Position numbers and translations under genes: made by a program
Shown here: positions 5,744 to 37,213 of the stretch, in pieces
Layout: each line of letters begins with the position of its first letter
How positions within the stretch are numbered: position 1 is the first letter of the stretch
From: a virus
Length of the DNA: 38,367 nucleotides
Strand: one strand, 5' to 3'
IMG/VR virus record: IMGVR_UViG_3300010885_003385
Span: 1-38,367 of that record
The notes under the pieces: model-generated
The model's database searches: none
Told to the model about the DNA's origin: nothing
What the model saw: the letters and a program-made list of their open reading frames with translations, nothing else

Positions 5744-5744
5744 T

Positions 5745-10464: not shown

Positions 10465-13400
10465 ATGAGTTCAACGGATAGACAAAACAACCTGCTAATT
10501 AATCAGGATTGGAAGAAAATATATCAAAGTTTCCGCAATGCAGACTTTCAAAGTTACGACTTTGAAAATTTACGCAGAACTATGATTGAGTATCTACGTA
10601 CTAATTATCCTGAAGATTTTAACGATTACATTGAGTCTAGCGAATACCTTGCCCTAATCGACCTTATTGCGTTCCTGGGCCAAAGCATAGCTTTCCGCGT
10701 TGACTTAAATGCTCGTGAAAACTTCTTAGAACTAGCAGAGCGCCGAGATAGCGTATTGCGTTTGGCACGTCTAATCAGCTATAACGCTAAACGCAATATT
10801 GCTGGACAGGGATTATTAAAGTTTAACACAATTCAAACGTCAGAAACAGTAGTTGACAGCAACGGTCGTAATTTAGCCGGTCAAGTAATTACATGGAATG
10901 ATCCAAGCAATACTAACTGGAACGATCAATTTATCAAAGTTATGAATGCGGCATTTCCTGCATCGCAACAGTTTGGAAATCCAAGTGCTCGAGCAACAAT
11001 TTACGGCATTCCAACAGGACAATATCGATTTAGTGGTAATAATACTGATCTGCCAATTTATTCATTTACTAAAATGGTGTCAGGTCGTCAGATGAATTTT
11101 GAAATTACCAGCACGACATTCAGCGGCCAATCATTTGTTTATGAAGAGCCACCAAAAATAGGAAATAGCCCTGCATGCATATACAGAGAAGACGGCCATG
11201 GCGCTGGCAGTGCAGGTACTGGGTTCTTCTTTAATTTTACAGAAGGTACATTAAATGTTGGCTCGTTTGTTATTGATCAACCTACTAGTAACGAATCAAT
11301 AGATGTAGATGCTCAGAATATTAATAATAATGATGTTTGGTTATACAGACTTGATCAAAACGGTCTCGAGACAGAGTTATGGACTCAAGTCTCATCAGTT
11401 ACTGGCAACAATATTATCTACAATAGCATTAATAAAAATATTAAAAATATCTATAGCGTTCTTACGAGAGCCGGTGATGCAGTTAGTTTAAGTTTTAGTG
11501 ACGGCACATTTGGTAATCTTCCTCTAGGAACTTTTAGAACTTATTATAGAGTAAGCAATGGATTAAACTATACAATAAACCCTGCAGATATTCGAAATGT
11601 ATCAATAACAATCCCATATACATCTGTATCAGGATCGCCCGAAACAATAACAATATCACTAAATCTAGTTACATCTGTATCAAACGCTACTCTTTCGGAA
11701 ACTAATACCGACGTTAAGACAAATGCACCACAGACATACTATACACAAAATCGTATGATTACAGGTGAAGATTATAACATTAGCCCACTATCGGTTACTC
11801 AAGAAGTTGCAAAAGTTAAAGCAATTAATAGAGCCAGCAGTGGTATTAGTCGATATTTTGATCTAGCAGACCCTACCGGAAAATATAGCTCGACGAATTT
11901 ATTTGCAGATGATGGCATTTTGTATCAAAATTCTTATACGTTTGATACACGATTCTCATATGCTACAAGAACAGACATTGAAGGGGTTATATATAACACT
12001 ATATTTCCAATTCTTAAAAAACCTAATCTACGAAATTTTTATTATTCAAACTACACTAAAATATTAAATCCTAGTTTAACATTTTCGTGGTTTAATATTT
12101 CTAGCGATTCTAGTTCATCTACAGGTTATCTAGGAGCATCTACAAGCTCTCCATATAAAGTTGGAACCGGCGCCACTAATGATTTAGTATATCTAGTCCC
12201 ACAGTCTTTAGTTAGATTTTCTGCACCAGTTGGATATTTCTTTGATACTAACAAAAATAATAAAATAACTGCTAGTACTACAACAAACTACGGTAAAATA
12301 GATGCAGTAAATTTAGTTGTAGGTCAAACATATACAATCTATAGTAACGCTGGTACTACTCCTCCACTTACTAATTTTATAAAATTAGGAGCATCTTCAA
12401 ACACTGTAGGAACTGTGTTTACTGCAACCGCAGCCGGAACAGGTAATGGAGTTGCTACCCTTACTGTAACACAAATTCCTACAGGTGGTGCATCTTATAT
12501 ATGGGCCGAGGTAGTATCCGTAACGGGCGATGGTACAGCAGTTGCACCACAAGGTGGCATACTATTAAACAGAGTAATTCCTTCAGCAGCCGTTGTGTCT
12601 CGAATTATCCCAAAACTCTCTACCTCAATAGATCCGACACTTATTACAACTATAATTGATTTAGTATTTGCTAATAAACCATTTGGCTTGCGATATGATA
12701 TTATACTGCAAGCATGGCAAATTGTTTTTGAATCTAATTTAGATACAGCTAATAATTTTAGTTTAATTAATCAAGGCAATACTTCAAATCTCGGATTAGA
12801 TTCTAGTTGGGTATTATTGTTTACAACGGATAACGAATTTTATACTGTTACTACTAGACAATTACAATACGTGTTTGAAAGCGATTCACAAGTTAGATTC
12901 TATTTTGATTCTAGTGAAAAGATTTATGATGTTACATCAAACACAGTTGTTAGCGATAAAATTAATATATTAAGTGTTAATACTCAGCCAGGTTATATTG
13001 CATCTGCGTTTACTTATGACTTAGCGTGGGACGTAGTTTCTGAAATTAATGGCGTTGATGGGTATGTTGATAATAAAAAGATAGCTATATCATTTGCTGA
13101 TTCTGATAGCAACGGTATAGTTGATAATCCTCAATTATTTTTAGATATTGTAGATCCAGTTACATCGCCACTTACAAAATATATCGTTCAAGAAAAGTAT
13201 TCAGTATCTATTGGGCAAGAAGACTATCGATACATGGACAATTCCGACGGAACTGTAATAATTAGACAAACTGAATCATCGGTTGGATCTTATACACAAT
13301 ACAACGACGGTCAGTATTTTTATTTTGTTACAACAAATGTTGTTAAAAAATTAAATTTAAAATCAGGTCAGCTAATACCTAATCTAGATTATAAAGTATT

Positions 13401-14097
13401 CATCGGCCGCGACAAATTAAAATTCCAATATACTCATAGTGCAGATTATGAATCTAGAATTGATCCGGGAGTAAGCAATATAATAGACATTTATGTATTG
13501 ACGAAAAACTATGATACACAATTTAGGCAATGGTTGAACGGTTCTGGTACATCTGAGCCGTTGCCTCCGGGCTCTGACGAATTGTACAACACTATTGCAC
13601 CGTCGTTGAATTTAATTAAATCAATCAGTGATGAGATTATATATCACCCAGTTAACTATAGAATACTGTTCGGAGCAACCGCCGATTCAAATTTACAAGC
13701 CATATTTAAAATTACTAAAAATGCTAACAGCGTAGTTTCTGATAACGATATTAAAGCAAGAACTATAAGCGCAATCAACCAATTCTTTAGTTTAGACAAC
13801 TGGGATTTTGGAGATACATTTTATTTCTCTGAACTATCTACATATATTATGACACAGTTAGCTCCCGATGTTACTAATTTTATTATTGTTCCACGAGAAA
13901 GCGGAGTATACTTCGGAGGGCTATTTGAAATAAAATGTCCAAGTAATCAGTTGTTCATCAACGGAGCAACAGTTGATGATATTGAGATTATTTCTGGAAT
14001 AACATCCGGCAACATTAAATCAGTTACAGGATCAGCGTTATCAACCGCTGCCTCAACACAAGTAATAACTAGTTCATCATTTGGAGCATCTAACTAA
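10465..14097 (+). CDS. 6: gp6-like baseplate wedge subunit with inserted domain
   Basis: 1210 residues, against about 660 for T4 gp6. The N-terminal 120 residues are the conserved gp6 start (DWKKIYQSFRNADFQSYDFE, SSEYLALIDLIAFLGQSIAF, RRDSVLRLARLISYNAKRN). The C-terminal part has the gp6/baseplate-J-like ending (LIKSISDEIIYHPVNYRILFG, then FFSLDNWDFGDTFYFSELST, then GLFEIKCPSNQLFINGA). In T4, gp6 dimers form the ring that drives baseplate opening. Much of the extra length is beta-rich sequence in the middle. It includes an evident inserted module from L617 to about residue 705 (VVGQTYTI, GASSNTVGTVFTATAAGTGN). The stop overlaps the next ATG by one base (TAATG). AGGA precedes the start. Confidence 0.93.
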   Translation: MSSTDRQNNLLINQDWKKIYQSFRNADFQSYDFENLRRTMIEYLRTNYPEDFNDYIESSEYLALIDLIAFLGQSIAFRVDLNARENFLELAERRDSVLRLARLISYNAKRNIAGQGLLKFNTIQTSETVVDSNGRNLAGQVITWNDPSNTNWNDQFIKVMNAAFPASQQFGNPSARATIYGIPTGQYRFSGNNTDLPIYSFTKMVSGRQMNFEITSTTFSGQSFVYEEPPKIGNSPACIYREDGHGAGSAGTGFFFNFTEGTLNVGSFVIDQPTSNESIDVDAQNINNNDVWLYRLDQNGLETELWTQVSSVTGNNIIYNSINKNIKNIYSVLTRAGDAVSLSFSDGTFGNLPLGTFRTYYRVSNGLNYTINPADIRNVSITIPYTSVSGSPETITISLNLVTSVSNATLSETNTDVKTNAPQTYYTQNRMITGEDYNISPLSVTQEVAKVKAINRASSGISRYFDLADPTGKYSSTNLFADDGILYQNSYTFDTRFSYATRTDIEGVIYNTIFPILKKPNLRNFYYSNYTKILNPSLTFSWFNISSDSSSSTGYLGASTSSPYKVGTGATNDLVYLVPQSLVRFSAPVGYFFDTNKNNKITASTTTNYGKIDAVNLVVGQTYTIYSNAGTTPPLTNFIKLGASSNTVGTVFTATAAGTGNGVATLTVTQIPTGGASYIWAEVVSVTGDGTAVAPQGGILLNRVIPSAAVVSRIIPKLSTSIDPTLITTIIDLVFANKPFGLRYDIILQAWQIVFESNLDTANNFSLINQGNTSNLGLDSSWVLLFTTDNEFYTVTTRQLQYVFESDSQVRFYFDSSEKIYDVTSNTVVSDKINILSVNTQPGYIASAFTYDLAWDVVSEINGVDGYVDNKKIAISFADSDSNGIVDNPQLFLDIVDPVTSPLTKYIVQEKYSVSIGQEDYRYMDNSDGTVIIRQTESSVGSYTQYNDGQYFYFVTTNVVKKLNLKSGQLIPNLDYKVFIGRDKLKFQYTHSADYESRIDPGVSNIIDIYVLTKNYDTQFRQWLNGSGTSEPLPPGSDELYNTIAPSLNLIKSISDEIIYHPVNYRILFGATADSNLQAIFKITKNANSVVSDNDIKARTISAINQFFSLDNWDFGDTFYFSELSTYIMTQLAPDVTNFIIVPRESGVYFGGLFEIKCPSNQLFINGATVDDIEIISGITSGNIKSVTGSALSTAASTQVITSSSFGASN

Positions 14098-17000
14098 TGG
14101 CTGATAGCATTAATCCATCGGGATCAAATAGCGTTTCTGCGAATTTTCTTCCAAATTTTTATAAAACTGATTCTAATAAGAAGTTTTTACAAGCAACAGT
14201 TGATCAGTTAGTACAGCCAGGTACTGTTAAAAAGATTAACGGATTCGTCGGCCGCAAGAATGCTAAGGCTGCGGTTGGTAGTGATGTGTATATCAACGCA
14301 CCAACTACGACAAGACAGAATTATCAGTTTGAACCTAGCTTTGTTATTAATGATACGATAGGTAATACAACTTATTTTAAAGACTATATTGACTATATTA
14401 ATCAGTTAGGGGTGTTTGGAAGTAATACTGCAAACCATTCTAGATTAAACTCTCAAGAATTCTATAGTTGGAACCCGCACATTGATTGGGATAAGTTTGT
14501 TAATTTTCAAAACTATTACTGGTTACCTTACGGCCCTGACCTTATTACCATCTACGGCCAGAAACAAAAGATTGAGAGCACATATACTGTATCAATAGAA
14601 TCTGAAGGTGACGGTAATGAGTATCTATTTACACCTAATGGATTAACACGCAATCCTGTACTTAGATTATACAGAGGACAAACATATACATTTAAAATTA
14701 AAAGTCCCGGCAATCCTTTTAGTATTAAATTACTACCGACACTAGGAACAGCTGACCGATATACAATACCACAGATTGACAAGTACGGAGTAGTTGATGG
14801 CACAATAACTGTAACACTACCGTCAGATACACCGAGTATATTGTATTATCAAAGCGAAACTGATTTAGCACTAAGTGGTGTAATACAAGTATTATCATTA
14901 GATGATAATTCTATTATCGATGTTGAACAAAATATATTAGGCAAAGCACAATATGTATTAGCCGACGGAACACCGTTGACTAATGGCATGAAAGTGAATT
15001 TTGGCGGAACAGTAATTCCTGTAAAATATGCTACCGGAAACTATTATGTAGAAGGTGTAGGAACAGCAATTACTCTAGTCAACGAATCTATTCTTGAAGT
15101 TGTATTTCCTTTTTCTAGTAACATTGCTGTATTATTTGATTCAACACCGTTTGATACTTTACCGTTTAGCGACGTTGAGGGATACGCTGGTAAGACTGAT
15201 TATATTCTTTCTAATCGAGGAAGTGCTGACCACAATCCGTGGGCAAGGTATAATCGATGGTTCCATAAAGATGCTATAGAAGCTAGTGCAAAATTTAATG
15301 GGAATACATCGTCATTAGACCAAACAGCACGAGCCACCCGTCCTATTATTGAATTTGAAGCAAACTTAAAGTTATTTAATTTTGGTACTAAGGCAATTAG
15401 CGATATTGACCTAGTTGATACATTTACTAAAGATGTGTTTTCTACGGTTGAGGGATCGTTAGGATATAATGTTGACGGCACACCACTAGCATCAGGCCAT
15501 AAGATATTATTTACTGCCGACACTGATCCTCTAGTTAAAAATAAAATATATCAAGTAGAGTTTGTTAATATAGAAGGAAGACGACAAATTCATTTAATCG
15601 AACTTACTTCACCGTCTAACAATGATGTAGTATTAGTAAGGCAAGGTTTAAAAAATCAAAGCCAGATGTACTGGTATAATGAAACGATCAATAATTGGGC
15701 AGCGGCCCAGCAAAAACTAACAGTAAATCAACCACCATTGTTTGATGTAGTTGATGCAAACTCACATAGTTATGGTGATATTTTATATTATCCGGGTAGT
15801 ACATTTATAGGTACAAAATTGTTTTCTTATAAAGTTTCATCTGCAGGTAGCAACGATGTTGTTTTAGGATTCCCATTAACTTATAAAAATATTAACAACA
15901 TCGGCGATATAGTTTTCAATTTTGATCTAACTACTGACAAATTTAATTATAAAAAAGACAATCTTAGCATTGCAACGCTCAAAGTCGATTTAGGATACCT
16001 AGTAAATCGTGACTATGCTGGCAATGCTTTATATGTCAACGGATGGAAAACCTGTGAAGTAAAAAATACTCAAGCCGCTGTTAGAATTTATAAAAATTCA
16101 AACATTAAAAATACATTCAACATTGATATTTTTGACGATATATCGAACCTAGAAGATTTAGTTGTTAAAGTTTACATTAATGGTATCTTACTAGATAACA
16201 GCTATTGGTCTATTGTCACAGGCTCTGCTTACAAATCAGTTAAATTAGTTACTCCGTTAAAAGATTCTGAAGTATTAACAATTAAAGCGTATGCATCTCA
16301 GCCAATTAATAGTAATGGCTACTATGAAATACCGTTAAACTTTCAAAACAATCCTCTCAACGATTACATGACTGACTTCACCCAGGGTGAAGTAAAAGAT
16401 CATGTTAGTTCAATAATAGAAAATCTGCCGCTCTCAGTAGACGTGTCACCCGAGAGTGCTAGTACAACTACTATCAGTGGACAAACATTTGATCCCGATC
16501 ATCCAAATATTAGAGACATTGGCGGCATAACTCAATACGGTACAAAGTTTGTACAGCATAGTGGCCCTGGAAGTTTATCAACATATCATATAACTTCACA
16601 GACAAACAATATAGTAAGATCTATAGAAAAAGCAAGAGACGATTATAATAATTTTAAGAAAATATTTCTAACGATTGCTGAAAAACTAGGAGTAGATTCT
16701 ACTCCGGCTAAACAAGTAGATCAAATTTTAGATAGGATTAACAAAGATAAGCCAACCAACTTGCCATATTATTTTAGTGATATGGTTCCTTATGGTTCTG
16801 CTATACGAACAGAAATCAAAGTAGTTGATTATCGAATTAAAACTTATCCTTTAACTAACGTTTTTACATTAGCTACATTGAGCAATAAAGCAATTGGGAT
16901 ATATTTAAACGGTGTTCAATTAATATACGGAAGTGAATATACGTTTGATAGCTCTGGATTTGTAATTATTGCAGATAAAGTAGTGATGACTAATACTGAT

Positions 17001-20000
17001 ACTATTAGTACTTACGAATATGACAATACTGACGGTAGTTTTGTACCAGAAACCCCGACTAAGTTAGGCATTTGGCCAAAGTACGAACCTAAAATTTATC
17101 TTGATACTACTTTAGTTACCCCTCGGATGATGATTCAAGGGCATGACGGCAGCTTAACATTGGCATTTGGAGATTATCGAGATAACATTATTTTAGAATT
17201 AGAAAAACGTATCTTTAATAATATTAAAGTAGAATATGATCCTAAAATATATAATATTTTTGATGTTATTCCGAGCTACGGCCACCAAACATACAGCAGA
17301 ACAGAATTTGATCAAGTACTTGCTCCGAATTTTTACAAGTGGACATCATCAATTAACAGAGATTTTTCTAAACCGTTAAGTTACGATAGAAACAATCCAT
17401 TTACTTACAATTATAAAGGGCATGCTACTCCTGATGGAAAGAATGCACCTGCGTATTGGAGAGGTATTTACACTTGGATGTATAATACTGATAGACCACA
17501 TACCCATCCTTGGGAAATGCTAGGCTTTACCATCGAACCTAGCTGGTGGCAAAGTGTATATGGACCTGCTCCATATACTAAAGATAATACAGTGTTGTGG
17601 ACAGATATTTCACAAGGTGTTGTTAAACAGCCAGGCGTGCCGCCGACCGTACTACCACAATACATTAAGCCTTGGTTAATGGCACACTTACCAGTGGATG
17701 ATTCAGGTGTATTAGTTAGTCCCCTCCAGTCAGATGTTGTATCAGGTGTAATTACTCCGTCGACTACAAATAATTTTGTATTCGGTGATAATAGCCCAGT
17801 TGAAGCAGCCTGGAGAAGAAGCAGCCACTATCCTTTTAGTATACTAATAACTTCTATGTTATTAACACCATCTAAAACTTTTGGATTAGTATTAGACCGA
17901 TCACGAATAGTAAGAGATTTGACAGGTCAACTTGTATATAAAGCAACAAACAGACGTATAAAACCGTCAGACATAGTTCTACCTAATATTTCTACAAGCT
18001 CTACTAGAGTACAAACTGCAGGTATTATCAACTATATTGTAAATTATATTTTAAGTGATAGTTTAAAATCTTACACTTCATACAAGTATGATTTATTAAA
18101 TTTATCAGCTAAACTTAGCTATCGTATTGGCGCTTTTAGTAGTAAAGAAAAATTTAATTTACTACTAGATAGTAAGTCTCCACTAGGTTCAGGTAGTATA
18201 TTTGTCCCGCAAGAAGATTACGATATTGTTTTAAATAGCTCTAGCCCTCTTAAGAAAATTACATATAGCGGAATTCTAGTAACAAAATTATCTGACGGAT
18301 ATGAATTAAAAGGTTACAGCCTAACAAGACCATACCTTAATTATTACAACTGGGTGCAGACTGGTAATCCGATTAATGTTGGCGGTATCTCTGAAGGATT
18401 TGCACAGTGGACTGCTAATCAGCAATATGCCGCCGGCACTATTGTTAAATTTAATAATGTGTATTATAGAGTACAAGTTACTCATACTGCTACTGGAACC
18501 TTTAATTCATCTTATGTTCAAGCATTAAAATCAATTCCGATTATAGGTGGAAGAACTGTTCTATCACGTAAGTTATGGGATAGAACTGAAGCAATTACAA
18601 TACCATACGGCACTAAATTTGATACGATACAAGAAGTGTATGATGTAATTATTGGATACGGAGAATGGTTAAAGGATCAGGGATTTGTATTTGACGATTA
18701 TAATTCTAATCTAGATGCAATTACCAATTGGGAAACTAGCGCCAAGGAATTTCTATTCTGGACCACTCAAAATTGGTCCTCAGGCCAGGATAAATGGGCA
18801 GAGTGGACACCTAATACCCCAGTAGTATTTGATTCTATATTACGATATAACGGAGATTATTACAAGGCTATTAAAACTATTCCAGCAACTGCAATATTTA
18901 ACCCAGAAGATTTTATAAAATTAGATGGATTGAGTACAGTCGGCAGTAGTGTTATTAGTTTAAGTCCATCTGCTGGAAGATTAACTTTTAATTCAGATTT
19001 GTGCGTAATAGATGATATTAGAAATGCGTTTAATGGCTATGAAATATTTAAAGTAGACGGTACACCGCTTCAATCTAATTTTATTCAGTCGTATAGAAAA
19101 GAAAACTATGTTACGTATTCACCTCGAACTGCTGATGGAATATATTGTGCAACATTCTATCTAGTACAAAAAGAACAAGTAGTAATTCTTAAAAATACTA
19201 CTATGTTTAATGATACGATTTATAATCCCCCAAGCGGCTACAAACAAGATCGAATTAAAGTATCAGGTTATGTAAGTGATGGTTGGTATGGCGGCTTCGA
19301 CATTCCGGGATTTATATTTGATCAGGCTATTGTAAACTCATGGGAGGCATGGAAAGATTATGCCCTGGGTGATATTGTTAAGTACAAAGATTTTTACTAT
19401 AGTGCTATTCATTTCCTTCCTGGCTCTGAAGTGTTTAATCCAACTAACTGGGTAAAACTTGATACGAGACCTACCTCTCAACTATTGCCAAATTGGAATT
19501 ATAAAGCAAATCAATTTACTGATTTCTATAGTCTAGACAGCGATAACTTTGATATTAATCAACAAAAAGTTGCCCAACATCTCATCGGATATCAAAAGCG
19601 TCAGTATCTTAATAACATTATTCAAGATGATGTTAGCGAATTTAAATTCTATCAAGGGATGATTCGTGAAAAAGGAACACAAAATGTTCTCAATAAATTA
19701 TTTGACGTATTAAGTGCAGACGGAAAAGAAAGTTTAAACTTCTATGAAGAATGGGCTGTTAGGGCCGGGCAGTATGGTGCTAGTTCTGGATTTGAAAGTA
19801 TTGAATTTACTTTAGATGAATCACTATTTAAAAATAATCCGCAAGGATTTGAATTAGTAAATCAAGTTAATTCAACTAATTATTATGATTTTATTATTAG
19901 ACAAACTCCTAACTTAGTTTATGTAAAACCGTTAGGGTATGCTTCTGCACCTTGGCCTAAGTTAAAGAATTATAATCCGTATTTGCGAAGTGCAGGTTAC

Positions 20001-23000
20001 GTAAAATCAAATGATGTTGCATTTACTTTTAAAACAATTGACGAAGTACTCACAGCTAATATTGATTTGTTTAATAACGGTGATTATATTTGGTGCACAT
20101 TTGAAGGTATATCATGGAATGTTTACAAGTATGCCGACCTTCAGTTACGTGTATTAAAAGGTGAATTAAACGCAGGAGTTGTATATAATTCTTCTAATAA
20201 AACACTTACAATCAAGTGCGAGGATTTAATATCTCTACCTGTAGGAACGTATGTTGGCCTATCCGGTGTTGTAGGATTATCCGGTTTTTATAAAATTACA
20301 TCTGTAGAATTAAACACATTCACAGTATCAACTACTCTATCAGGCTGGCCCCCAAAGCCACCAGAAGGTGCCCAACCATCATGGACACCGGCAGATGATT
20401 TAATAGTGTTTGCGTTAATCAGCCAACGAACAGCATCAATCGATACTATTGATACAGCTTTATCCAAGGCAGTATCGCCGGGTGATCTATTATGGACTGA
20501 CGACAGTGGTACTGGAAAATGGGCATCGTGGGAATATAATCAGGTTTACTCAGAAGTTGATATTAAGAATTCTCTTCCTATACCTGAATTAAAATACGGA
20601 AAAACACTAGCTATTAGTACATCTGGAAATGTTGTAGCAATATTAAACGGCCCAGGCGAAACAATAATCTATCAACGATCTAACTTGTTGTGGGTTCAAC
20701 AACAGACTTTATCTAGACCAAGTATCGCTAAAGAGGTTTTTGGTGTAGATCCGAATACTACTGTAGTTGGCCGGACAGTCACTTCTAGCGTAATCGGCGA
20801 CTCTGCCGCATTTTCTCCTGACGGTACTTGGCTTGCTATTGGTTCACCATTAGCTAAGAATGCATCTACAAAACTAGTCGGTGTGTGGTCCAACTCTACA
20901 ACATATGCTGTTGATGATATTGTATCAATAGGTAACTTGTACTATCAAGCATTGCAATCTGGCATTATCGGAATTAATCCAGCAAGCGTTAATTTAGTAT
21001 GGGAATTACTACCGTATCTTAGCACAGATATTGTTGGAACAAACACAGATAAGACATTGCATGGCGCAGTGACCCTTTACAAAAGAAACCCAATCGGACT
21101 ATATGATTTAGTTGATACTATACTAAGCCCTGCGTTCCGAGACGGAGAACGTTTTGGTTCAAGTTTAGTATTTGGAGATAATGAACTTTACATATCTGCT
21201 TTAGGATACGATACAAATCGAGGACGAGTTTACAAATTAAATTATACTACAATTGAACATGTTTCTACAACTTACAACTCAGTAGGCAGTGCGTTTGGAG
21301 CAGTAGCAGTTACTTCTACTACCGGAGTACAAGCAGGCATGTCGATCATCGGAACAGGATTCACCTCAGGGCAAACTGTTCTATATACATTAACTAAACT
21401 ATTTTTTGCTATTGGCGATGATATTTCAAGAGTTAAAATTGGTATGTTTGTGAGCGGAACAAATGTAACTTTTCCTACTGAGGTGTACTCAGTATATTAT
21501 GATTCAACCGCAGTTCGCCGAGGCTATGTAGTAGTTCAAGCCCACCAAGATTTATCAAATATTTCAAATGTTACGTTTTCTGATGGTACAACATCATTAA
21601 CTCGTACAGTAGTACAAGTAACACCGATGAACATAGTATTAAGTGGTAGCCCTAATTCTACCCCTAGCGGTGTTATTAAATTTGTAACAGTAAGCTGGAC
21701 GTATGACTTATCTAAAATTTATGCAGGAGAAACAACTCAAAGTAATTTTGGAAATTCTATATCATTAAGTACTGATACTAGCGTACTAAGCATATCTGCT
21801 TGCGCAGGATCAGTTCCGGGCAAAGTATATGTTTATAAAAAGGCCAGCGGAACATTTAGTACAACACCAACACAAACAATCTTAGGTACTGATTACGATT
21901 TCGGACAAGCGATATCACTATCGACTAGCGGCGAATACTTGGCAATATCAGACGATCTTACAGATGGTGTCCGCACAATACAGCAGGGCGGAGTTAGTGT
22001 GTATAAGTTCAATGGATCTACATACAGCCTGTACCAAGCATTAGAAAATCATCAACCTCAAATAAATGGAAGATTCGGAAGCGAAATGTCCTTCATGAAT
22101 GATTTTAAAACATTAGTTGTCTATAGTACACACGGCGATACTGAGGCAATTGTAACATTCAATGAAGATCAAACTGAGAATCCGACTATTTCAGGTCAAC
22201 CAACTACCTTTGATAAAAAGTCTACAAATTTTATAACAACTAATACAAATACCGGCCGTGTAGACATATACGATAGGTATGCATCAAAGTGGGTCTTCAG
22301 TGAAACATTGTCAGCTAATACAAGAACTGCCGATAGCTACGGTGCGGCAATCGCGATTGGCAATAATAATGTGTTTGTGGGAGCACCGTTTACAACTGAC
22401 CAAGGATTACGTTCGGGTAAAGTTTATAATTATATTAAAACACCAAATACATACTCGTGGACGATTAAGGATATTGAAATTGAAAAACCAGATCCATATA
22501 AAATTAAGCAGGCATTTTTATACAACAAGACAACAGACCAGTTATTGAATAAACTTGACATTATCGATCCATTGCAAGGAAAAATTCCAGGTATTGCTTC
22601 TGAAGAATTAAAATATGCCACTTTTTATGATCCAGCGATTTATTCTATTGGAGTAGATGTTACTGTTGATCCTAATGCTCAATGGACTACCGATCAAGTT
22701 GGTCAACTATGGTGGGACCTTAGAACTGCTAAATTTATAGAAAGTTATGATTCGTCAGTTGCATATCGAAACAGTACATGGAATACTTTAGCGCACAGCG
22801 CAAGCATTGATGTATATGAGTGGATATCAACAACACTGCTTCCAGTAGACTGGGATAAAAAAGCTGACACCGAAGTTGGATTAGCACAGGGAATTAGTGG
22901 TACCTCATTGTACGGAAATAGTGCATATTCTATTAAAAAGAAGTATGATACAATAAGTCAGACGTTTAAAAATACATATTGCTACTGGGTAAAAAATAAA

Positions 23001-26000
23001 AAAGTTGTTCCTAATATAACAGGAAGACATATTTCTGCCGCAGAAGTTTCTAATCTAATTGCAAATCCAAGAGGTCAGGGATACACGTATGTTGCGATAA
23101 CTGGAATAAATTCATTTAGTATAGTTAATGCCAAGCCATTGTTAATTGACAAAGATATAGCATTGTCAGTAGAATATTGGACAATAGATAAGACTGATCA
23201 AAATGTGCATAGTCAGTGGAAGTTAATTAATTCATCTACAAGTACAACTATTCCTAAAAATATTGAAAAGAAATGGTTTGACAGTCTATGCGGCAAAGAT
23301 GACTACGATAGGGTAGTGCCAGATATAGATTTACCAGCTAAGTTACGTTATGGCATTGAAAATCGCCCACGTCAGGGCATGTTTATCAATCGCATCGAAG
23401 CACTTAAACAAGTAGTGGAAAAAGCAAACACAGTATTATTAAAGAATCAAATTGTTGAAAATAGAAATTTATCAGCACTACAGTCGGCAGATGTTTATCC
23501 AAGTTTGATTTCAGGTCAATACGATACCACAGCGGATACTGCCGCAGAATTAGTCTATGCTAATATTGGAGGATTTAGACGTCCTACAATAACACCGACT
23601 ATCATCGACGGAAAGATTACAGGCATTAATATTGTATATGCAGGACAAGGTTATACTGCCGCACCGTATATTGACATAGTTGGGTCCGGGGAAGGAGCAA
23701 CGATAAAAGCTACAATTAGCACAGACGGTCTTGGAAAAATTACAGGCGCAACTGTTATAAATTCTGGATCGGGATATGATAATAATACTGTAGCATTGAT
23801 TAGAGATTTCTCAGTATTAGTATATCAGGATGAAAATGCATCAAACAACTGGAGCATTTATTCATACGATCCGATTGGTGCAATTTGGTCAAGAATAAAA
23901 ACTAAAACATATGATGTTACTGATTATTGGTCTAAAGTTGATTGGTACTCGCCTGGATATAGCTCGTTTTCAGCCGCAGATTATTCTGTAAATACCTACT
24001 CGGAACTATCTCAGATATCAGATTCAGTAGCTATTGGAAAATTAGTAATTGTAAGATATACTGGCACATCGGGATGGCAACTGCTAGTAAAATATGCAAA
24101 TTCATCTAGTATTGACTGGACACAATCATATACAGTAGTCGGTATAGAGAAAGGAACGATACAGCTTAATTCCGATCTATATAGTTTCTTAGGAACTCCT
24201 GTAGGTTATGATGCTTCAACTTATGATGGAACATTATTTGATACAGTTGCATCAAATGAATTAAGAATTATTTTAACAGCCTTACGAGATAATATCTTTA
24301 TTGATGATTTATCTAGTGCATATTTAGATTTGTTCTTTGTTAGTGTACGATATATATTTACAGAACAGATTTATGTTGATTGGATATTTAAAACTAGTTT
24401 CATCAAAGCAAAGCATAATGTTGGCGAATTAAAACAGCCGGTAACATATCGTAATGATAATTTAAGTAACTTTGAAGATTACGTTGATGAAGTTAAACCA
24501 TACAGAACAAATATTCGAGAATATGTAAGTTCGTATGAGAAAGTTGACACTAGTCAAACATCTATTACTGACTTTGATTTACCATCAGCCTACGAAAATA
24601 AAATACTATCAGCTATACTAACTTCGATTAATAATAACACTATTAATGTCGCCGACCCAGTCGTACAGACATATCCGTGGAAGCACTGGCTTGATAATAT
24701 TGGATACACTATAACATCTATAGAATTAGTAAGTTCAGGGTCGGGTTATATCTCAGACCCTACTGTGGTTATTTCTAATGGAGCAGGAACAGGTGCAACA
24801 GCAAAAGCATTAACATCTAACGGAGTAGTTAGTAGAATTATATTGTTAACACACGGTAAAGGTTACCTGTCAGCACCGACAATTACGTTTACTGGAGGAT
24901 TAATAGAAGGTGGAACTCCTGCAAGAGCAGTTGCAATAATTGGAACTAGTTCAGATCCTATAATAGGTAATAACGTTGTGCGTTCTAATTTAATAAAAAT
25001 AAAATTTGATCGTATTACACAATCTTATTTTATAACTACTTTGCAACAAACAGAAACAAAAACCGGATCTAATGGATTGTATCAGTTTAAGTTAACTTGG
25101 GCACCTGATATTAGAATAGGAACATCGAGTATTACTATTAACGGTGTATCAGTATTACGAGATTTATACAAATTAAGTATTGTAAAATCTACAACTAAAG
25201 GATATACAAGTTATAGTGGACTTTTAGAATTTTCTACAGCACCAGCCGCTGGCTCAATTATTTCTATAACTTATTTAAAAGATTGGTCGTTATTAAATGC
25301 CGCTGATCGTATACAGTATTATTACAATCCAAAATCTAGAGACTTGGGAAAAGATTTAGGTCAGTTAATGACCGGAGTAGACTACGGCGGAGTTATTGTT
25401 GATGGTCTCAATTTTGATCTCAGCACCGGCTGGGATTCAAACGGCTACGGAACAGACGCATGGGATGAGTTCGATGAAGGATTTGATGATTATATAACAG
25501 TAGTATCTGCAAATACACATTCATTTATCTTACCGTATGTACCAGCAAATCTAACAGTGCTTAATGTTTATTATATAAAAAATATTCTAGACACATACAC
25601 ATCTAACGGTGCACAGACTCAGTACAAGTATAAGATTGCAAACACAAGACCAATCGCTACAGCATCTGTCTTAGTTAATTCAACTGGCGTAGTTACTAAA
25701 ACTACAGGTTCGGGCAGTAGTGGAACTAGTTTAAAACTTGTAAATACGACAGGTATTATTGTTGGAATGGGGATTGTCGGCGGAGGATTTAATTCATTAC
25801 ACAAAGTAACAGAGATAGTCAATTCGACTACCTTAAGAATTAACAAAGCACCGATATCAGCTATTGGCATAACTTTAGATTTTGTTAATAACTCTGCAGG
25901 ATCTAGTACAATACTGGTATCAAGTACCTCCTCACTAAAAGCGGGCGATGTAGTAACTAGCACGGCAGTTAATGCATTTAATTCCAATGCTAAAATTAAG

Positions 26001-29000
26001 ACAATTGTAAACAGTACTACACTTATACTAGATCAGATTTTAATAGCTAATATTCCTAATAACTCAGCTATAACATTTTCTCGAGTATTATTAACTCCGG
26101 CCGACATAACAATATATGCAACTGGTACGATTACACTGACTAGCCCGTTAGCATCTGGTACTACCCTTACAATTGAAGGCCCAGCGGCATCAATACGACT
26201 TGACGATCCATTCTACGGAACAGCGCAACAAACTAATCATAATGCTATTATGTTATCGCCTGTAGCTAACGGATTGAATAGTGCGTTTACAATTCCAAAT
26301 ACATTTGTAGTTAATAATAAAGATGAATTTATTTGGAGAAAGAGTACAAGTGACGGTTCCGTTACGCCTCAGGTTGATTATGATTCAGCAATTAGCGGCG
26401 GTGACACTTCTAAAACTATTACAGGGGCATTTGCTTCAGCAACAGGATTAGCCGCTGATGATATTATTCTCGACGGTGACGGATTTGTAACACCGACTTC
26501 AAGTCCAGCACCGGAAGAAGTTGTTCCAGGCCAAGTAGTTGATACTGTAGCTATTAAGGTATACGATCAACCAAATTCTGGATCAGCCTCAGTTAAAATT
26601 GACAATTATATTACCAACGGAATACAATCAAGTTTTGTTATATCACAAACACCTAACAGCCCAAGAGCTGTTATTGTTAAAGTTGGAAACACTATTAAAA
26701 ACTATAATACAGACTACACACTTGATTATAAAAATAAAACAATAACATTTGTTACCGCTGTATCAACAACAGTTCCAGGACCAGCCGCTGGTACTACTAT
26801 TACAGTGATAAATTTAGTAGCAACACCCCCAACTGCTGGCCAAACAGTTACTATTTTTAGTATTGGTTTTAGCGGAGCAAATATTTTAGATCTCGATCAT
26901 GCAACAGGCAACGGAACAACAGTTGAATTTATCACCAAGGCTCCGTGGATAGATGAAACGACATCATTGATATATCTAAACGGCAAAGCGGCAATTGCTC
27001 AATTGTTTAAAACAGATAATACTTATGAAAGTCCTAACCGTGTAGGAATTAGATTTAATACGGCTCCTGCAATCGGAGATTTAATTAATTATATTATTGT
27101 TAGCGGTAACCAGCAAACATTTGCTGTAACTACTACTGAAAAAATTACACCTACAGTTTCTGCATCAGTATTTCCTCTAACGTATCCGATCGGAAATTCA
27201 CTACCAAACGAAGCTAGTATTATAGTTAGAGTTGATCAAACAATATTACCAGGCCCGAGCAATACCTATTATACAATTGGTAGTAATAGATTAACATATT
27301 CAATCGATCCGAGCACATTTGCATCCGGATCGTTGAACTCATCAGATATAACTATTTTAGTAGATGGCAAATTATTAAAACTAGGTTCTGACTACTCAGT
27401 TGACCTTACCGGAATTAATATAAAAATTAATAAACGTGTTTACAACATAAACAAAGGAAAACAATTAGTTATAATAGTATCAGCAGGTGCTGGATATGTT
27501 TATTATCCACCAACACAAAATACTGTAACATTATTAGTTGGAAAAACTGGTATAGGACCATATCAAGTAACATTTAGAATTACTCAACAAGATGCTCCGC
27601 CACTAACCGGTGTAAATTATATTGTTGACGGAAATTCTAATCCGTTATACAACGGAACATATGTCTGTACTGCTAGCACAGTAACATCAATTACCTTACA
27701 GTATGCATCAGATCCAGGTACGTACTTGATAGCCCATGAAACTACAATAACGCCAGTTGCGGGCAGTATAGTATTTGCTCAAGCATATACATCTTCTAAT
27801 TACATAGAAGTTATTAGTTCGTATCAACATGATATTTTAGATATTAATAGAACAAGTATTAGTGTATCGTTCTCACAATCAGTTGTAGCAGACACTCCGG
27901 AATACTATTACTATAAAGATATCGCAGGCGGACAGCTAGTGCTATCGAGACCAGTAATAGATGACGGTTATGTATGGGTGACAAAAAATAATATGTTACT
28001 ATCACCAACAGTTGATTATAAAGTTAATGATGACAGAAGCAGTATTACATTAGCAGTTTATCCTCAGTCAAATGATAAGTTTATGCTGATTACGTTTAGC
28101 AGTAATGTTATTACTTCTGGCGTTGCCTACATGCAATTTAAAGATATGCTTAATAGGGTACATTATAAGAGATTAAGTCTTAATAAGAAAACAACACTAG
28201 TACAGGATTTAAATTATAATGATTTACAAATTATAGTTGCTGATGCTAGTAATTTTGATAAACCTAATCTTACACAAAATAAACCAGGGGTAATTGAAAT
28301 TAAAGGAGAACGTCTTGAATATTTCTCCTTAGTTGGAAATGTATTAAGCAATATCCGTAGAGGTACATTGGGTACAGGAATTCCTAACAAACATACAGCA
28401 GGTTCGATTGTACAGGATATCGGTCCAAGCGAAACGATCCCATATACCGAAACAACTAATATAGAACAAGTAATATCTGACGGCACAACTAATGTTCCTA
28501 TATCGTTTATTCCGAAACTCACAGCAACTACTTCACTAGTTAATCAACATAATTATGATACTGTTGAAGTCTTTGTAGGCGGCTACGATATAGCAGAATG
28601 GACACCTAGCACCAATTATTTTGTTGGATCTATATTTTCATATGCTAGCTACACTTATAAAGTAACAGCAAATCATATAAGCGGATCCGCATGGGGTAGT
28701 TTAGTTACTACTATACAACAAGATGGCACTATAATTTCTAAAAATATTAGTGCTAATTCAGTATACACTTTCTTTATAGGAAATATTAGATTACGTAAGA
28801 AATCATATACTATGCATAATAGCAATATTGCTCCTAACAGTTCAGAAGGTGACATAATACTTCCAGCAGATTTTACAGTAGATGGCACGAGCAAAAAAAT
28901 TACATTATTAACTCCATTATCCGTTGGTACTAGAATAACCGTTGTACAACGAACAGGAATTAATTGGGATATTAGCTTAAATAATGATAGTAAGATTGCT

Positions 29001-29138
29001 AATTTCCTAAGGGCAACTCCGGGAATTAGCTATTCTCCGCTAAGAACAAGTGTTCCTACAGGCCTTAGCGTAACAAGTTTTGATAGTAATAACGGAACAT
29101 TCGATATAAGCAATATAACATTCGACAAACAAGGATAA
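14097..29138 (+). CDS. giant gp7-like baseplate wedge/adhesin protein (5013 residues)
   Basis: A single uninterrupted 15-kb frame, 39% of the window. Position after gp6 and an N-terminus I recall from marine T4-like gp7 proteins (FLPNFYKTDSNKKFLQATVD, NHSRLNSQEFYSWNPHIDWD) point to the wedge backbone; T4 gp7 is only 1032 residues. Other parts: five aromatic Trp/Tyr-Tyr modules resembling chitin-binding (CBM5/12) domains near W1438, W1570, W1752, W2264 and W4835; a likely seven-bladed FG-GAP propeller (about 2167-2782); GxGY beta modules (3183-3227 and 3551-3590); a gp7-like block FKTSFIKAKHNVGEL at about 3432; three TTGxxxGM modules (about 2409, 3884, 3942); many short LNGxxL...DYT beta-sandwich units; and a conserved block GERLEYFSLVGNVLSNIRRG near 4738. 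No T4-type gp8 gene follows it. The functional split between wedge and host binding is inference. Confidence 0.85.
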   Translation: MADSINPSGSNSVSANFLPNFYKTDSNKKFLQATVDQLVQPGTVKKINGFVGRKNAKAAVGSDVYINAPTTTRQNYQFEPSFVINDTIGNTTYFKDYIDYINQLGVFGSNTANHSRLNSQEFYSWNPHIDWDKFVNFQNYYWLPYGPDLITIYGQKQKIESTYTVSIESEGDGNEYLFTPNGLTRNPVLRLYRGQTYTFKIKSPGNPFSIKLLPTLGTADRYTIPQIDKYGVVDGTITVTLPSDTPSILYYQSETDLALSGVIQVLSLDDNSIIDVEQNILGKAQYVLADGTPLTNGMKVNFGGTVIPVKYATGNYYVEGVGTAITLVNESILEVVFPFSSNIAVLFDSTPFDTLPFSDVEGYAGKTDYILSNRGSADHNPWARYNRWFHKDAIEASAKFNGNTSSLDQTARATRPIIEFEANLKLFNFGTKAISDIDLVDTFTKDVFSTVEGSLGYNVDGTPLASGHKILFTADTDPLVKNKIYQVEFVNIEGRRQIHLIELTSPSNNDVVLVRQGLKNQSQMYWYNETINNWAAAQQKLTVNQPPLFDVVDANSHSYGDILYYPGSTFIGTKLFSYKVSSAGSNDVVLGFPLTYKNINNIGDIVFNFDLTTDKFNYKKDNLSIATLKVDLGYLVNRDYAGNALYVNGWKTCEVKNTQAAVRIYKNSNIKNTFNIDIFDDISNLEDLVVKVYINGILLDNSYWSIVTGSAYKSVKLVTPLKDSEVLTIKAYASQPINSNGYYEIPLNFQNNPLNDYMTDFTQGEVKDHVSSIIENLPLSVDVSPESASTTTISGQTFDPDHPNIRDIGGITQYGTKFVQHSGPGSLSTYHITSQTNNIVRSIEKARDDYNNFKKIFLTIAEKLGVDSTPAKQVDQILDRINKDKPTNLPYYFSDMVPYGSAIRTEIKVVDYRIKTYPLTNVFTLATLSNKAIGIYLNGVQLIYGSEYTFDSSGFVIIADKVVMTNTDTISTYEYDNTDGSFVPETPTKLGIWPKYEPKIYLDTTLVTPRMMIQGHDGSLTLAFGDYRDNIILELEKRIFNNIKVEYDPKIYNIFDVIPSYGHQTYSRTEFDQVLAPNFYKWTSSINRDFSKPLSYDRNNPFTYNYKGHATPDGKNAPAYWRGIYTWMYNTDRPHTHPWEMLGFTIEPSWWQSVYGPAPYTKDNTVLWTDISQGVVKQPGVPPTVLPQYIKPWLMAHLPVDDSGVLVSPLQSDVVSGVITPSTTNNFVFGDNSPVEAAWRRSSHYPFSILITSMLLTPSKTFGLVLDRSRIVRDLTGQLVYKATNRRIKPSDIVLPNISTSSTRVQTAGIINYIVNYILSDSLKSYTSYKYDLLNLSAKLSYRIGAFSSKEKFNLLLDSKSPLGSGSIFVPQEDYDIVLNSSSPLKKITYSGILVTKLSDGYELKGYSLTRPYLNYYNWVQTGNPINVGGISEGFAQWTANQQYAAGTIVKFNNVYYRVQVTHTATGTFNSSYVQALKSIPIIGGRTVLSRKLWDRTEAITIPYGTKFDTIQEVYDVIIGYGEWLKDQGFVFDDYNSNLDAITNWETSAKEFLFWTTQNWSSGQDKWAEWTPNTPVVFDSILRYNGDYYKAIKTIPATAIFNPEDFIKLDGLSTVGSSVISLSPSAGRLTFNSDLCVIDDIRNAFNGYEIFKVDGTPLQSNFIQSYRKENYVTYSPRTADGIYCATFYLVQKEQVVILKNTTMFNDTIYNPPSGYKQDRIKVSGYVSDGWYGGFDIPGFIFDQAIVNSWEAWKDYALGDIVKYKDFYYSAIHFLPGSEVFNPTNWVKLDTRPTSQLLPNWNYKANQFTDFYSLDSDNFDINQQKVAQHLIGYQKRQYLNNIIQDDVSEFKFYQGMIREKGTQNVLNKLFDVLSADGKESLNFYEEWAVRAGQYGASSGFESIEFTLDESLFKNNPQGFELVNQVNSTNYYDFIIRQTPNLVYVKPLGYASAPWPKLKNYNPYLRSAGYVKSNDVAFTFKTIDEVLTANIDLFNNGDYIWCTFEGISWNVYKYADLQLRVLKGELNAGVVYNSSNKTLTIKCEDLISLPVGTYVGLSGVVGLSGFYKITSVELNTFTVSTTLSGWPPKPPEGAQPSWTPADDLIVFALISQRTASIDTIDTALSKAVSPGDLLWTDDSGTGKWASWEYNQVYSEVDIKNSLPIPELKYGKTLAISTSGNVVAILNGPGETIIYQRSNLLWVQQQTLSRPSIAKEVFGVDPNTTVVGRTVTSSVIGDSAAFSPDGTWLAIGSPLAKNASTKLVGVWSNSTTYAVDDIVSIGNLYYQALQSGIIGINPASVNLVWELLPYLSTDIVGTNTDKTLHGAVTLYKRNPIGLYDLVDTILSPAFRDGERFGSSLVFGDNELYISALGYDTNRGRVYKLNYTTIEHVSTTYNSVGSAFGAVAVTSTTGVQAGMSIIGTGFTSGQTVLYTLTKLFFAIGDDISRVKIGMFVSGTNVTFPTEVYSVYYDSTAVRRGYVVVQAHQDLSNISNVTFSDGTTSLTRTVVQVTPMNIVLSGSPNSTPSGVIKFVTVSWTYDLSKIYAGETTQSNFGNSISLSTDTSVLSISACAGSVPGKVYVYKKASGTFSTTPTQTILGTDYDFGQAISLSTSGEYLAISDDLTDGVRTIQQGGVSVYKFNGSTYSLYQALENHQPQINGRFGSEMSFMNDFKTLVVYSTHGDTEAIVTFNEDQTENPTISGQPTTFDKKSTNFITTNTNTGRVDIYDRYASKWVFSETLSANTRTADSYGAAIAIGNNNVFVGAPFTTDQGLRSGKVYNYIKTPNTYSWTIKDIEIEKPDPYKIKQAFLYNKTTDQLLNKLDIIDPLQGKIPGIASEELKYATFYDPAIYSIGVDVTVDPNAQWTTDQVGQLWWDLRTAKFIESYDSSVAYRNSTWNTLAHSASIDVYEWISTTLLPVDWDKKADTEVGLAQGISGTSLYGNSAYSIKKKYDTISQTFKNTYCYWVKNKKVVPNITGRHISAAEVSNLIANPRGQGYTYVAITGINSFSIVNAKPLLIDKDIALSVEYWTIDKTDQNVHSQWKLINSSTSTTIPKNIEKKWFDSLCGKDDYDRVVPDIDLPAKLRYGIENRPRQGMFINRIEALKQVVEKANTVLLKNQIVENRNLSALQSADVYPSLISGQYDTTADTAAELVYANIGGFRRPTITPTIIDGKITGINIVYAGQGYTAAPYIDIVGSGEGATIKATISTDGLGKITGATVINSGSGYDNNTVALIRDFSVLVYQDENASNNWSIYSYDPIGAIWSRIKTKTYDVTDYWSKVDWYSPGYSSFSAADYSVNTYSELSQISDSVAIGKLVIVRYTGTSGWQLLVKYANSSSIDWTQSYTVVGIEKGTIQLNSDLYSFLGTPVGYDASTYDGTLFDTVASNELRIILTALRDNIFIDDLSSAYLDLFFVSVRYIFTEQIYVDWIFKTSFIKAKHNVGELKQPVTYRNDNLSNFEDYVDEVKPYRTNIREYVSSYEKVDTSQTSITDFDLPSAYENKILSAILTSINNNTINVADPVVQTYPWKHWLDNIGYTITSIELVSSGSGYISDPTVVISNGAGTGATAKALTSNGVVSRIILLTHGKGYLSAPTITFTGGLIEGGTPARAVAIIGTSSDPIIGNNVVRSNLIKIKFDRITQSYFITTLQQTETKTGSNGLYQFKLTWAPDIRIGTSSITINGVSVLRDLYKLSIVKSTTKGYTSYSGLLEFSTAPAAGSIISITYLKDWSLLNAADRIQYYYNPKSRDLGKDLGQLMTGVDYGGVIVDGLNFDLSTGWDSNGYGTDAWDEFDEGFDDYITVVSANTHSFILPYVPANLTVLNVYYIKNILDTYTSNGAQTQYKYKIANTRPIATASVLVNSTGVVTKTTGSGSSGTSLKLVNTTGIIVGMGIVGGGFNSLHKVTEIVNSTTLRINKAPISAIGITLDFVNNSAGSSTILVSSTSSLKAGDVVTSTAVNAFNSNAKIKTIVNSTTLILDQILIANIPNNSAITFSRVLLTPADITIYATGTITLTSPLASGTTLTIEGPAASIRLDDPFYGTAQQTNHNAIMLSPVANGLNSAFTIPNTFVVNNKDEFIWRKSTSDGSVTPQVDYDSAISGGDTSKTITGAFASATGLAADDIILDGDGFVTPTSSPAPEEVVPGQVVDTVAIKVYDQPNSGSASVKIDNYITNGIQSSFVISQTPNSPRAVIVKVGNTIKNYNTDYTLDYKNKTITFVTAVSTTVPGPAAGTTITVINLVATPPTAGQTVTIFSIGFSGANILDLDHATGNGTTVEFITKAPWIDETTSLIYLNGKAAIAQLFKTDNTYESPNRVGIRFNTAPAIGDLINYIIVSGNQQTFAVTTTEKITPTVSASVFPLTYPIGNSLPNEASIIVRVDQTILPGPSNTYYTIGSNRLTYSIDPSTFASGSLNSSDITILVDGKLLKLGSDYSVDLTGINIKINKRVYNINKGKQLVIIVSAGAGYVYYPPTQNTVTLLVGKTGIGPYQVTFRITQQDAPPLTGVNYIVDGNSNPLYNGTYVCTASTVTSITLQYASDPGTYLIAHETTITPVAGSIVFAQAYTSSNYIEVISSYQHDILDINRTSISVSFSQSVVADTPEYYYYKDIAGGQLVLSRPVIDDGYVWVTKNNMLLSPTVDYKVNDDRSSITLAVYPQSNDKFMLITFSSNVITSGVAYMQFKDMLNRVHYKRLSLNKKTTLVQDLNYNDLQIIVADASNFDKPNLTQNKPGVIEIKGERLEYFSLVGNVLSNIRRGTLGTGIPNKHTAGSIVQDIGPSETIPYTETTNIEQVISDGTTNVPISFIPKLTATTSLVNQHNYDTVEVFVGGYDIAEWTPSTNYFVGSIFSYASYTYKVTANHISGSAWGSLVTTIQQDGTIISKNISANSVYTFFIGNIRLRKKSYTMHNSNIAPNSSEGDIILPADFTVDGTSKKITLLTPLSVGTRITVVQRTGINWDISLNNDSKIANFLRATPGISYSPLRTSVPTGLSVTSFDSNNGTFDISNITFDKQG
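20595..22440 (+). other. FG-GAP (integrin-alpha-like) beta-propeller domain inside the giant protein
   Basis: Seven Phe/Tyr/Ile-Gly repeat starts followed by alternating strands ending in a VY-type strand, at residues Y2167 (YGKTLAIS), I2233 (IGDSAAFSPDG), F2353 (FGSSLVFGDN), F2551 (FGNSISLSTD), F2602 (FGQAISLSTS), F2660 (FGSEMSFMND) and Y2748 (YGAAIAIGNN). Blade 2 is interrupted by the W2264 aromatic module. A TTGxxxGM module of about 150 residues lies between blades 3 and 4. Seven blades is the number in integrin alpha propellers. WD40 or Kelch folds are less likely, given the repeat-start Gly and the GxVYxY ends. Confidence 0.7.
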
Positions 29139-29142
29139 AAAG

Positions 29143-30459
29143 ATGGCACAACAACTCTTAAACGCAGGTTCAACTGCAAACGACGGCACTGGGGACACCC
29201 TTCGTTCAGGTGCGATAAAAATAAATGCAAACTTTACTGAACTGTATTCAAATAGTAGTAATAATATTCCAAGTCAGACTGGAAATTCAGGTTTATTTTT
29301 AGCGACCAACGGAACTACATTAAGTTGGGCTAACCCCTCAGCTAACTCATTACCGACACAAACCGGCAATACTGGAAAGTTCTTAACAACTAACGGAACT
29401 ACTTCTAGCTGGGCAGACGTTGCTATTGGTAATGCTAGCACAGTAACTAATGGGGTTTATACTACCGGTACCTATGCAGACCCTAGTTGGATTACTAGTT
29501 TAGCAGGTAGTAAAGTTACTAACGCTGTACTAACAACTACAGTATATGCAGACCCTGCTTGGTTAACATCGTTAGCTGTTAGTAAAGTTACTAACGCAGT
29601 ATCGAGTGCTAGTACTTATGCAGACCCTAGTTGGATTACTAGTTTAGCAGGATCAAAGTTAACTGGAACAGTATTAGCGACCAACGGCGTGGTTACATCC
29701 GGTACCTATGCAGACCCTAGTTGGATTACAAGTCTAGCCGCTAGTAAACTAACTGGAACAGTAGTAGCAACAAACGGTGTAGTAACATCTCAGACATATG
29801 CAGATCCTGCTTGGATTACCAGCATCGGCGAAACAAAGGTGTTACCAACACAAACAGGACAAACTGGAAAATATTTAACTACTAACGGAACAGCAAGTAA
29901 TTGGGTGACGATAGATACTATTCCTACCCAATCTAGTAATAGTGGAAAATATTTAACTACTAACGGTACTGCACTTAGTTGGGGAACACCGAGCGGTACG
30001 ATCCCGACTCAAACTGGTAATAGCGGAAAATACTTAACGACAGACGGCACGACTGCAAGTTGGGCGACGGTAGCTGGACTAGTAGCTCGAACAACAGTGA
30101 CAGCTACTACTGCAAGTATAGCTAACAATGCCAATGCAGATGCCAATATTACTGGATTTAAATCCTATGCACTATTAAAAATTCAAACATCGGCAGCAGC
30201 CTGGGTTCGAATATATTCAGATGCCGCATCTAGAACTTCTGATGCATCGAGAGCATCTACCACTGATCCGTTACCTAGTGCTGGAGTTATTGCAGAAGTA
30301 ATTACAACCGGTGCCCAGACGATTCTTATCAGTCCGGGGGCATTTGGTTTTAATAGTGAAAATTCCCCAACTACTACAATCCCAATAAACATTACAAACC
30401 TTTCCGGGTCTGCCGCGGCAATTACTGCTACGTTAACAGTACTACAACTGGAGGCATAA
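29143..30459 (+). CDS. repeat-rich tail-fibre-like virion protein
   Basis: 438 residues. The N-terminus NDGTGDTLRSGAIKINANFT (13-32) is a motif seen at the start of many T4-like structural and fibre proteins, probably an attachment helix. It is followed by two interleaved repeat families. One is PTQTGNSGKYLTTNGTxxSW, five copies near 43, 70, 235, 261 and 287. The other is TYADPSWITSLAGSKVT, five copies between about 110 and 230. Such repeats are typical of trimeric fibre shafts. The C-terminal domain (about 312-438: SYALLKIQTSAAAWVRIYSD, then ISPGAFGFN) resembles a compact beta domain I recall at the ends of marine phage structural proteins; it is probably the tip. Starts 5 bp after the giant gene. 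Confidence 0.78.
   Translation: MAQQLLNAGSTANDGTGDTLRSGAIKINANFTELYSNSSNNIPSQTGNSGLFLATNGTTLSWANPSANSLPTQTGNTGKFLTTNGTTSSWADVAIGNASTVTNGVYTTGTYADPSWITSLAGSKVTNAVLTTTVYADPAWLTSLAVSKVTNAVSSASTYADPSWITSLAGSKLTGTVLATNGVVTSGTYADPSWITSLAASKLTGTVVATNGVVTSQTYADPAWITSIGETKVLPTQTGQTGKYLTTNGTASNWVTIDTIPTQSSNSGKYLTTNGTALSWGTPSGTIPTQTGNSGKYLTTDGTTASWATVAGLVARTTVTATTASIANNANADANITGFKSYALLKIQTSAAAWVRIYSDAASRTSDASRASTTDPLPSAGVIAEVITTGAQTILISPGAFGFNSENSPTTTIPINITNLSGSAAAITATLTVLQLEA
29266..30063 (+). repeat. in-frame degenerate repeats in the fibre-like gene
   Basis: Ten in-frame repeat units of two kinds, 17-21 codons each, with strongly similar DNA (for example tatgcagaccctagttgga recurs near 29473, 29617 and 29707). 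They encode the shaft of the fibre-like protein and could recombine to change shaft length. Confidence 0.8.
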
Positions 30460-30460
30460 T

Positions 30461-37179: not shown

Positions 37180-37205
37180 GCTATTAGAAATTTAAGATAA
37201 AACAG

Positions 37206-37213
37206 CATAAATA
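37206..37213 (+). promoter_or_regulatory. late promoter box ahead of the third fibre paralogue
   Basis: CATAAATA, 7/8 to TATAAATA, 24 bp before the ATG at 37238. AAGGAAA (37223-37229) supplies the ribosome binding site. It lies in a 58-bp gap without a visible hairpin. Confidence 0.72.

Follow-up and report, generated by a model that had tools for sequence, protein, structure and literature searches.

T4 gp7 is a baseplate wedge subunit of 1032 aa, with its core at about aa 640-770. It is also the docking place of gp9, which holds the long tail fibre and binds one gp7 domain through its N-terminal domain (PMC3004832). The gp7 homologue of phage XM1 bears spikes on an insertion of its core domain and at its C-terminus (PMC10457771). 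Oversized wedge proteins are an already known class. At the gp7 position cyanophages encode proteins of 7022 aa (S-MbCM6), 4446 aa (P-HM1), 4156 aa (S-SM2) and 4225 aa (ACG-2014f), of which the P-HM1 protein is annotated as gp7 and the S-SM2 protein as gp7, wedge initiator; gp7 occupies the same gene position in T4, P-HM1, S-SM2 and ACG-2014f. These cyanophage giants have a gp7 KGT core near the N-terminus (about aa 200-700), and the phages that encode them have a gp8 gene.

Other giants belong to the family PHROG 10938, whose members directly follow gp6 in Ettore (3857 aa), Phosso (4555 aa), Atu_ph07 (4449 aa), 121Q (about 3323 aa) and RaK2 (3326 aa), with further homologues in SCTP-2 and Vibrio phage 2.275.O. 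In phAPEC6, gp245 (381.88 kDa) yielded 17 unique peptides from virions and is encoded next to gp244, a 131-kDa wedge protein (PMC7247149). We compute a mass of 381.87 kDa for the 121Q orthologue and, since the masses agree, take it to be phAPEC6 gp245 and virion-associated, noting that this is a distant orthologue and not the protein of the phage studied here. The analysis below offers a link between the gp7 wedge subunit and such large virion genes of jumbo-type phages, most of which lack annotation, and corrects which part of one such giant is to be regarded as its core.

A giant gene in the gp7 position

The window, a 38,367-nt stretch of viral DNA from IMG/VR, carries a T4-type baseplate operon on its + strand, to which all window coordinates below refer. 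It runs from gp53 (5730-6047; PF11246, 3.9e-6) through a 748-aa protein, a gp5-like hub (8295-9953; phrog_13211, 6.3e-42) and the sheath initiator gp25 (9964-10413; PF04965, 2.9e-11) to the wedge subunit gp6 (10465-14097; phrog_10646, 1e-297, and phrog_219, 1.5e-14), the stop of which overlaps the ATG start of the giant (P0001, 14097-29138). Downstream follow a gp9/10 N-domain gene, a subtilase gene, a 204-aa gene and then fibre genes. If gp7 is defined as the gene that comes immediately after gp6 in the gp53-gp5-gp25-gp6 block, the giant is that gene, and we think it very probable that it has the position and role of the wedge subunit gp7.

As the earlier note had it, the gene is a single unbroken frame of 5013 aa, with a computed mass of 552.5 kDa and a length 4.86 times that of T4 gp7 (the note had put it at about five); if there were six copies, they would total 3.3 MDa. 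Its aa 1-1000 have relatives in at least 592 IMG/VR stretches. The frame is open in all 30 related IMG/VR records (span 4521-5659 aa) and is therefore not a chance ORF. Searched in five pieces, the protein matches the PHROG 10938 profile in four (E 6e-95, 3e-131, 4e-45 and 3e-57), no match to that profile being found in the last. Like the PHROG 10938 giants of RaK2, 121Q, PA5oct/Ettore, Atu_ph07, Phosso and SCTP-2, with which it shares homology at aa 16-2020 and 2775-3500 (about 23-31%), it has the same 204-aa partner protein nearby, and in most of these phages gp6 as a neighbour; unlike it, the PHROG 10938 proteins reach 3.3-4.6 kaa and carry no detected CBM motif. Scans for distant relatives with Phosso as query found none.

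That the protein is undescribed as a kind, as had been suggested, does not hold. The cyanophage giants occupy the same position and have mobile modules in common with it, so neither its length nor its multidomain make-up is new as such, and with 7022 aa in S-MbCM6 we dropped the notion that 5013 aa might be a record.

The C-terminal tail co-occurs with the adjoining connector gene

What is new is that the C-terminus of the giant exists in two states, with or without a tail of about 25 aa, and that its state is coupled to the presence of an adjoining gp9/10 N-domain gene. In the tail-less state the giant ends PGIWYxxYK and the 204-aa gene begins about 50 nt past its stop. In the tailed state the two genes are separated by a cassette of 0.9-7.3 kb, and the giant ends in extra sequence such as TFDSxxGTFDSxNITFDQG; here the tail is SFDSNNGTFDISNITFDKQG, with three FD motifs (aa 4994-5013, 29076-29135). 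The first cassette gene encodes a gp9/10 N-domain, starting between -3 and +11 nt from the giant's stop in 41 of 41 tail-bearing loci; in the window it is a 438-aa protein that begins 4 nt past the stop (29143-30459; PF07880, 7.3e-7).

Tail and gp9/10 N-domain gene, scored in separate searches, are concordant in 71 of 71 relatives (40 with both, 31 with neither, none mixed); note that the rule for calling a tail was fixed after the first table had been seen, with four rows (L106, L123, L137 and L160) reassigned by eye. Counted on a tree of giant aa 2760-3840, nine independent contrasts on supported branches are all concordant (sign test, p=0.0039). All 31 distinct tails keep the three D residues unchanged and end TFD[QKR]G. 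Among the other genes of the fetched loci there is no tail, three small matches being truncated giants, and in the PHROG 10938 phages inspected we find neither an FD tail nor a gp9/10 N-domain gene annotated directly after the giant.

In T4, gp7 is the binding partner of the gp9 N-domain. By analogy, the tail may dock the gp9/10-type fibre connector encoded immediately 3' of it; we consider the case for and against this evenly balanced. Three FD motifs would suit a trimeric connector, and a more tentative version of the model is that a monomeric giant arm docks a trimeric gp9/gp10-type connector with one FD motif per subunit, gain or loss of tail and gene together swapping the fibre cassette. 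Such a coupling suggests how tail fibres might be plugged in or exchanged, and it makes the last 25 residues a precise, testable site for the attachment and exchange of peripheral fibre modules on contractile-phage baseplates.

The alternative that survives best, although we regard it as rather unlikely, is that the tail is a hitchhiker: a connector/protease cassette recombines at the 3' end of the gene and supplies the final codons itself, no docking being involved. Tail and connector gene are always adjacent, so that one recombination moves both; the cassette also varies widely in size, and there are other gp9/10 N-domain genes with no FD tail before them. Yet with at least nine switches none of the 71 relatives keeps a tail, intact or decayed, where the connector gene is missing, nor has any the gene and no tail, and the three D residues and the TFD[QKR]G end persist across diverged phages, where neutral sequence would have lost them. 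A different cassette, in relative L180, comes without a tail: its insert encodes an S53/sedolisin-like protein (identified by eye) and no gp9/10 N-domain gene.

The coupling applies to the adjoining gene. We rejected the FD tail as a partner of every gp9/10 N-domain gene, other such genes in G001 and G003 having no tail upstream, and dropped the idea that tail-less phages are devoid of any gp9/10 N-domain protein, G001 having such proteins elsewhere. Both of these long relatives also encode a second giant that itself begins with a gp9/10 N-domain. In G003 it is a 4710-aa protein (L314, G003:C1:135071-149203, minus strand), in G001 a frame of 3574 aa (G001:C1:33607 onward).

What separates the giant from the 204-aa gene (29143-32107 in the window) is a variable cassette in which protease genes recur. 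Here it holds an optional subtilase S8 gene (30461-32107; PF00082, 1.8e-27), found in 9 of 60 relatives, in which the triad motifs HGTHTAG and GTSMA can be spotted by eye. The 204-aa gene itself (32171-32785; phrog_11259) is downstream of the giant in all 60 relatives having enough sequence, and all seven of the isolated jumbo phages inspected encode the protein near their giant (34-51% identity). The protein is probably an indispensable component of the baseplate or neck.

Purifying selection and modular architecture

The giant is under strong purifying selection along its full length. Compared with its nearest relative, L173 (84% identical), differences fall 622/358/1765 by codon position, with dN 0.088 and dS 0.93, so that dN/dS is about 0.095 over the whole gene; within the variable stretch at aa 2000-2790 it is 0.13. 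Per 100-aa block, identity to the nearest relative ranges from 0.62 to 0.97. The phage is a large freshwater one, and the giant belongs to its tail-tip machinery as a strongly conserved component.

These figures bear on the earlier note's proposal that the protein is a giant adhesin, its arms forming a skirt that senses or binds the host surface via carbohydrate-binding modules. Modules of that kind are present, as the note had recognised. A CBM5/12-like module at aa 1437-1467 (18405-18497) matches chitin-binding domains by profile (Pfam 2.6e-8, PDB profile 5.6e-4) and by fold (Foldseek TM 0.74 to the ChiA1 chitin-binding domain), and a second at aa 1749-1781 (19341-19439) is found by motif, the Pfam search returning two stretches; a weak match at aa 4834-4866 (28596-28694; E 0.0012) is under the Pfam cut-off. 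There is also one FG-GAP repeat at aa 2742-2777 (1.4e-7) in the variable insertion region at aa 2000-2790 (20094-22466), which is probably a beta-propeller, and gp7 domains are peripheral in T4. However, selection is purifying throughout, no receptor-like hypervariable tip is seen against the nearest relative, and the CBM-like domains are small, vary in motif number among relatives and are absent by motif from the isolated ones. Moreover, separate fibre genes lie further down the operon, one with a collar domain. We therefore consider an adhesin unlikely.

The remaining map combines family-conserved domains with mobile beta-modules. At the N-terminus, aa 1-150 (14097-14546) form a conserved domain with an LPxFYxT helix and ...FYSWxPhIDwDKFvNFxxYYW, 25-41% identical to isolated jumbo phages. 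It is followed by a module at aa 175-267 (14619-14897) that also occurs in the C-terminus of a cyanophage gp10 (90%) and in P-HM1 gp7 (82%); that it is cupredoxin-like is our reading of its sequence. A family signature, YWRGIYxWMYNTDRPHxxPWEMLGFxxEPxWW, lies at aa 1090-1190 (17364-17666), with 49% identity to isolates at aa 1101-1150 and AF2 pLDDT of about 80-92 across most of the block. Two GxGY modules lie at aa 3164-3235 (23586-23801; GxGYxxxPxVxI repeat) and aa 3536-3620 (24702-24956), and GxGY occurs in all four cyanophage giants (up to 95-97%). The stretch at aa 3800-4560 is variable, and relatives carry insertions of up to about 190 residues at aa 2200-2450 and of several hundred at around aa 4000-4100 and 4800.

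Segment-wise structure prediction and fold search, as the earlier note had advised, recovered the CBM modules and no gp7 fold. Across aa 1000-2060, AF2 and Foldseek give matches to CBM modules only. The model of aa 2760-3840 matches no solved structure at E below 0.001 and, in a viral library, mainly relatives of the same family. One uncultured-phage protein, A0A6J5L0K2 (BFVD), 58% identical over the modelled region, is labelled just 'YHYH domain-containing protein'. AF2 is confident over most of aa 2790-3370. Within this, the family-conserved block at aa 2795-3150 (22479-23546) is mostly confident, and the fold search finds no solved structure for its model at E below 0.001; the block may be an unseen fold.

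A moderate match to the gp7 core

T4 gp7 carries ...YDFYSTKGIEASYKFLFKVLYNE..., a motif common to gp7s and giants. Minimal gp7-like proteins (ACP17, 482 aa; DLP_6, 1288 aa) and the cyanophage giants have FYxSKGTxxSFxxLFRxL, and giants of the PHROG 10938 type carry FYQGMIREKGTQNVLNKLFDVL at aa 1797-1920 (19485-19856). The most conserved 100-aa block of the giant (81% in relatives) falls within this region, and the match to the [ST]xKG helical core of gp7 is a moderate one at the sequence level. The KGT motif is at 1859, whereas in cyanophage gp7 it is near the N-terminus, and outside the core and the mobile modules we detect no alignment between the cyanophage proteins and the giant.

Direct searches for gp7 with Pfam, PHROGs, PDB sequences, whole-segment hhalign, HMMER and BLAST gave no match, hhalign of the core directly against T4 gp7 stays below 1%, and P2 gpI, tried as a bridge to gp7, gave no match either. 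We compared by hhalign a gp7-core profile enriched with IMG/VR sequences. Against this profile T4 gp7 reaches 98.3% (E 2e-14) and the KGT block, with the N-terminus spliced on, 74% (E 2.7e-5); the KGT region by itself gives 55%, a diverse contiguous block alone 47% (E 2e-4). The spliced KGT block scores 35.9, against at most 24.7 for 300 column-shuffled decoys and at most 24.0 when 60 other segments of the giant are substituted; with an earlier, poorer profile it was the top of all tiles, at 25.8 versus 25.1 for the best of 810 decoys. Random segments replacing the N-terminus (aa 8-62), by comparison, score at least as well in 4 of 60 cases. These decoy and substitution controls support the KGT half of the core and do not establish the N-terminal half: aa 1-150 is a possible first half of a split gp7 core, and as such no better than random segments. 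Modelled by AF2 without its presumed partner gp6, aa 1797-1920 reaches a low pLDDT of about 28-50 and matches no gp7 fold, a model that speaks neither for nor against the core match.

The gp7-like backbone of the earlier note thus stands as regards position after gp6 and a moderate core match, and shifts as regards where that core is: aa 1797-1920 had been missed. The N-terminal block that had been named is conserved across the family, as is the one near 3430-3480, which lies in a conserved block at aa 3360-3510 (24174-24626; VDWVFKTSY...EVKPYRTKIR) with no gp7 or cyanophage match outside GxGY and is not gp7-like. Nor is the block near 4730-4790, which overlaps the GERIEYF...RRGTLGT module at aa 4690-4765 (28164-28391), 37.5% identical to PA5oct-type proteins and weakly matched by hhalign in one cyanophage giant, ACG-2014f gp7 (38%).

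We think it likely that the giant and gp7 share common descent. That an unrelated giant structural protein took over the gp7 gene position would agree with the failure of HMMER, BLAST and direct hhalign to match T4 gp7 families, but we hold it to be very unlikely, since no part of the giant except the KGT block stands out against the enriched profile, the position after gp6 is constant, and some of the giant's modules recur in cyanophage giants whose gp7 core is certain.

Proposed arrangement and surrounding genes

Overall, we lean, with somewhat better than even confidence, towards a gp7-equivalent wedge subunit of a T4-related, jumbo-type myophage that combines a KGT core, scaffold arms and a connector-docking tail. 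The core at aa 1797-1920 would hold the giant to gp6 at the inner baseplate. Around it extend arms of about 1800 residues before and 3100 after, made of the family-conserved domains and the mobile CBM5/12-like, GxGY, cupredoxin-like and FG-GAP beta-modules; they may reach outward as a scaffold that bears peripheral connectors and fibres.

A gp8 profile that, built without T4, does recover T4 gp8 at 97.8% finds no gp8 in the window or inside the giant. We dropped the possibility of a gp8 fused into the giant, the sole part matching the gp8 profile being the GxGY module.

At the far end of the window (32789-38365) lie at least three fibre-type genes with a similar N-terminal stretch, MSY...YGxxxNENFVYLLENFAN...P..GQLWFD, which suggests one attachment domain with different tips.
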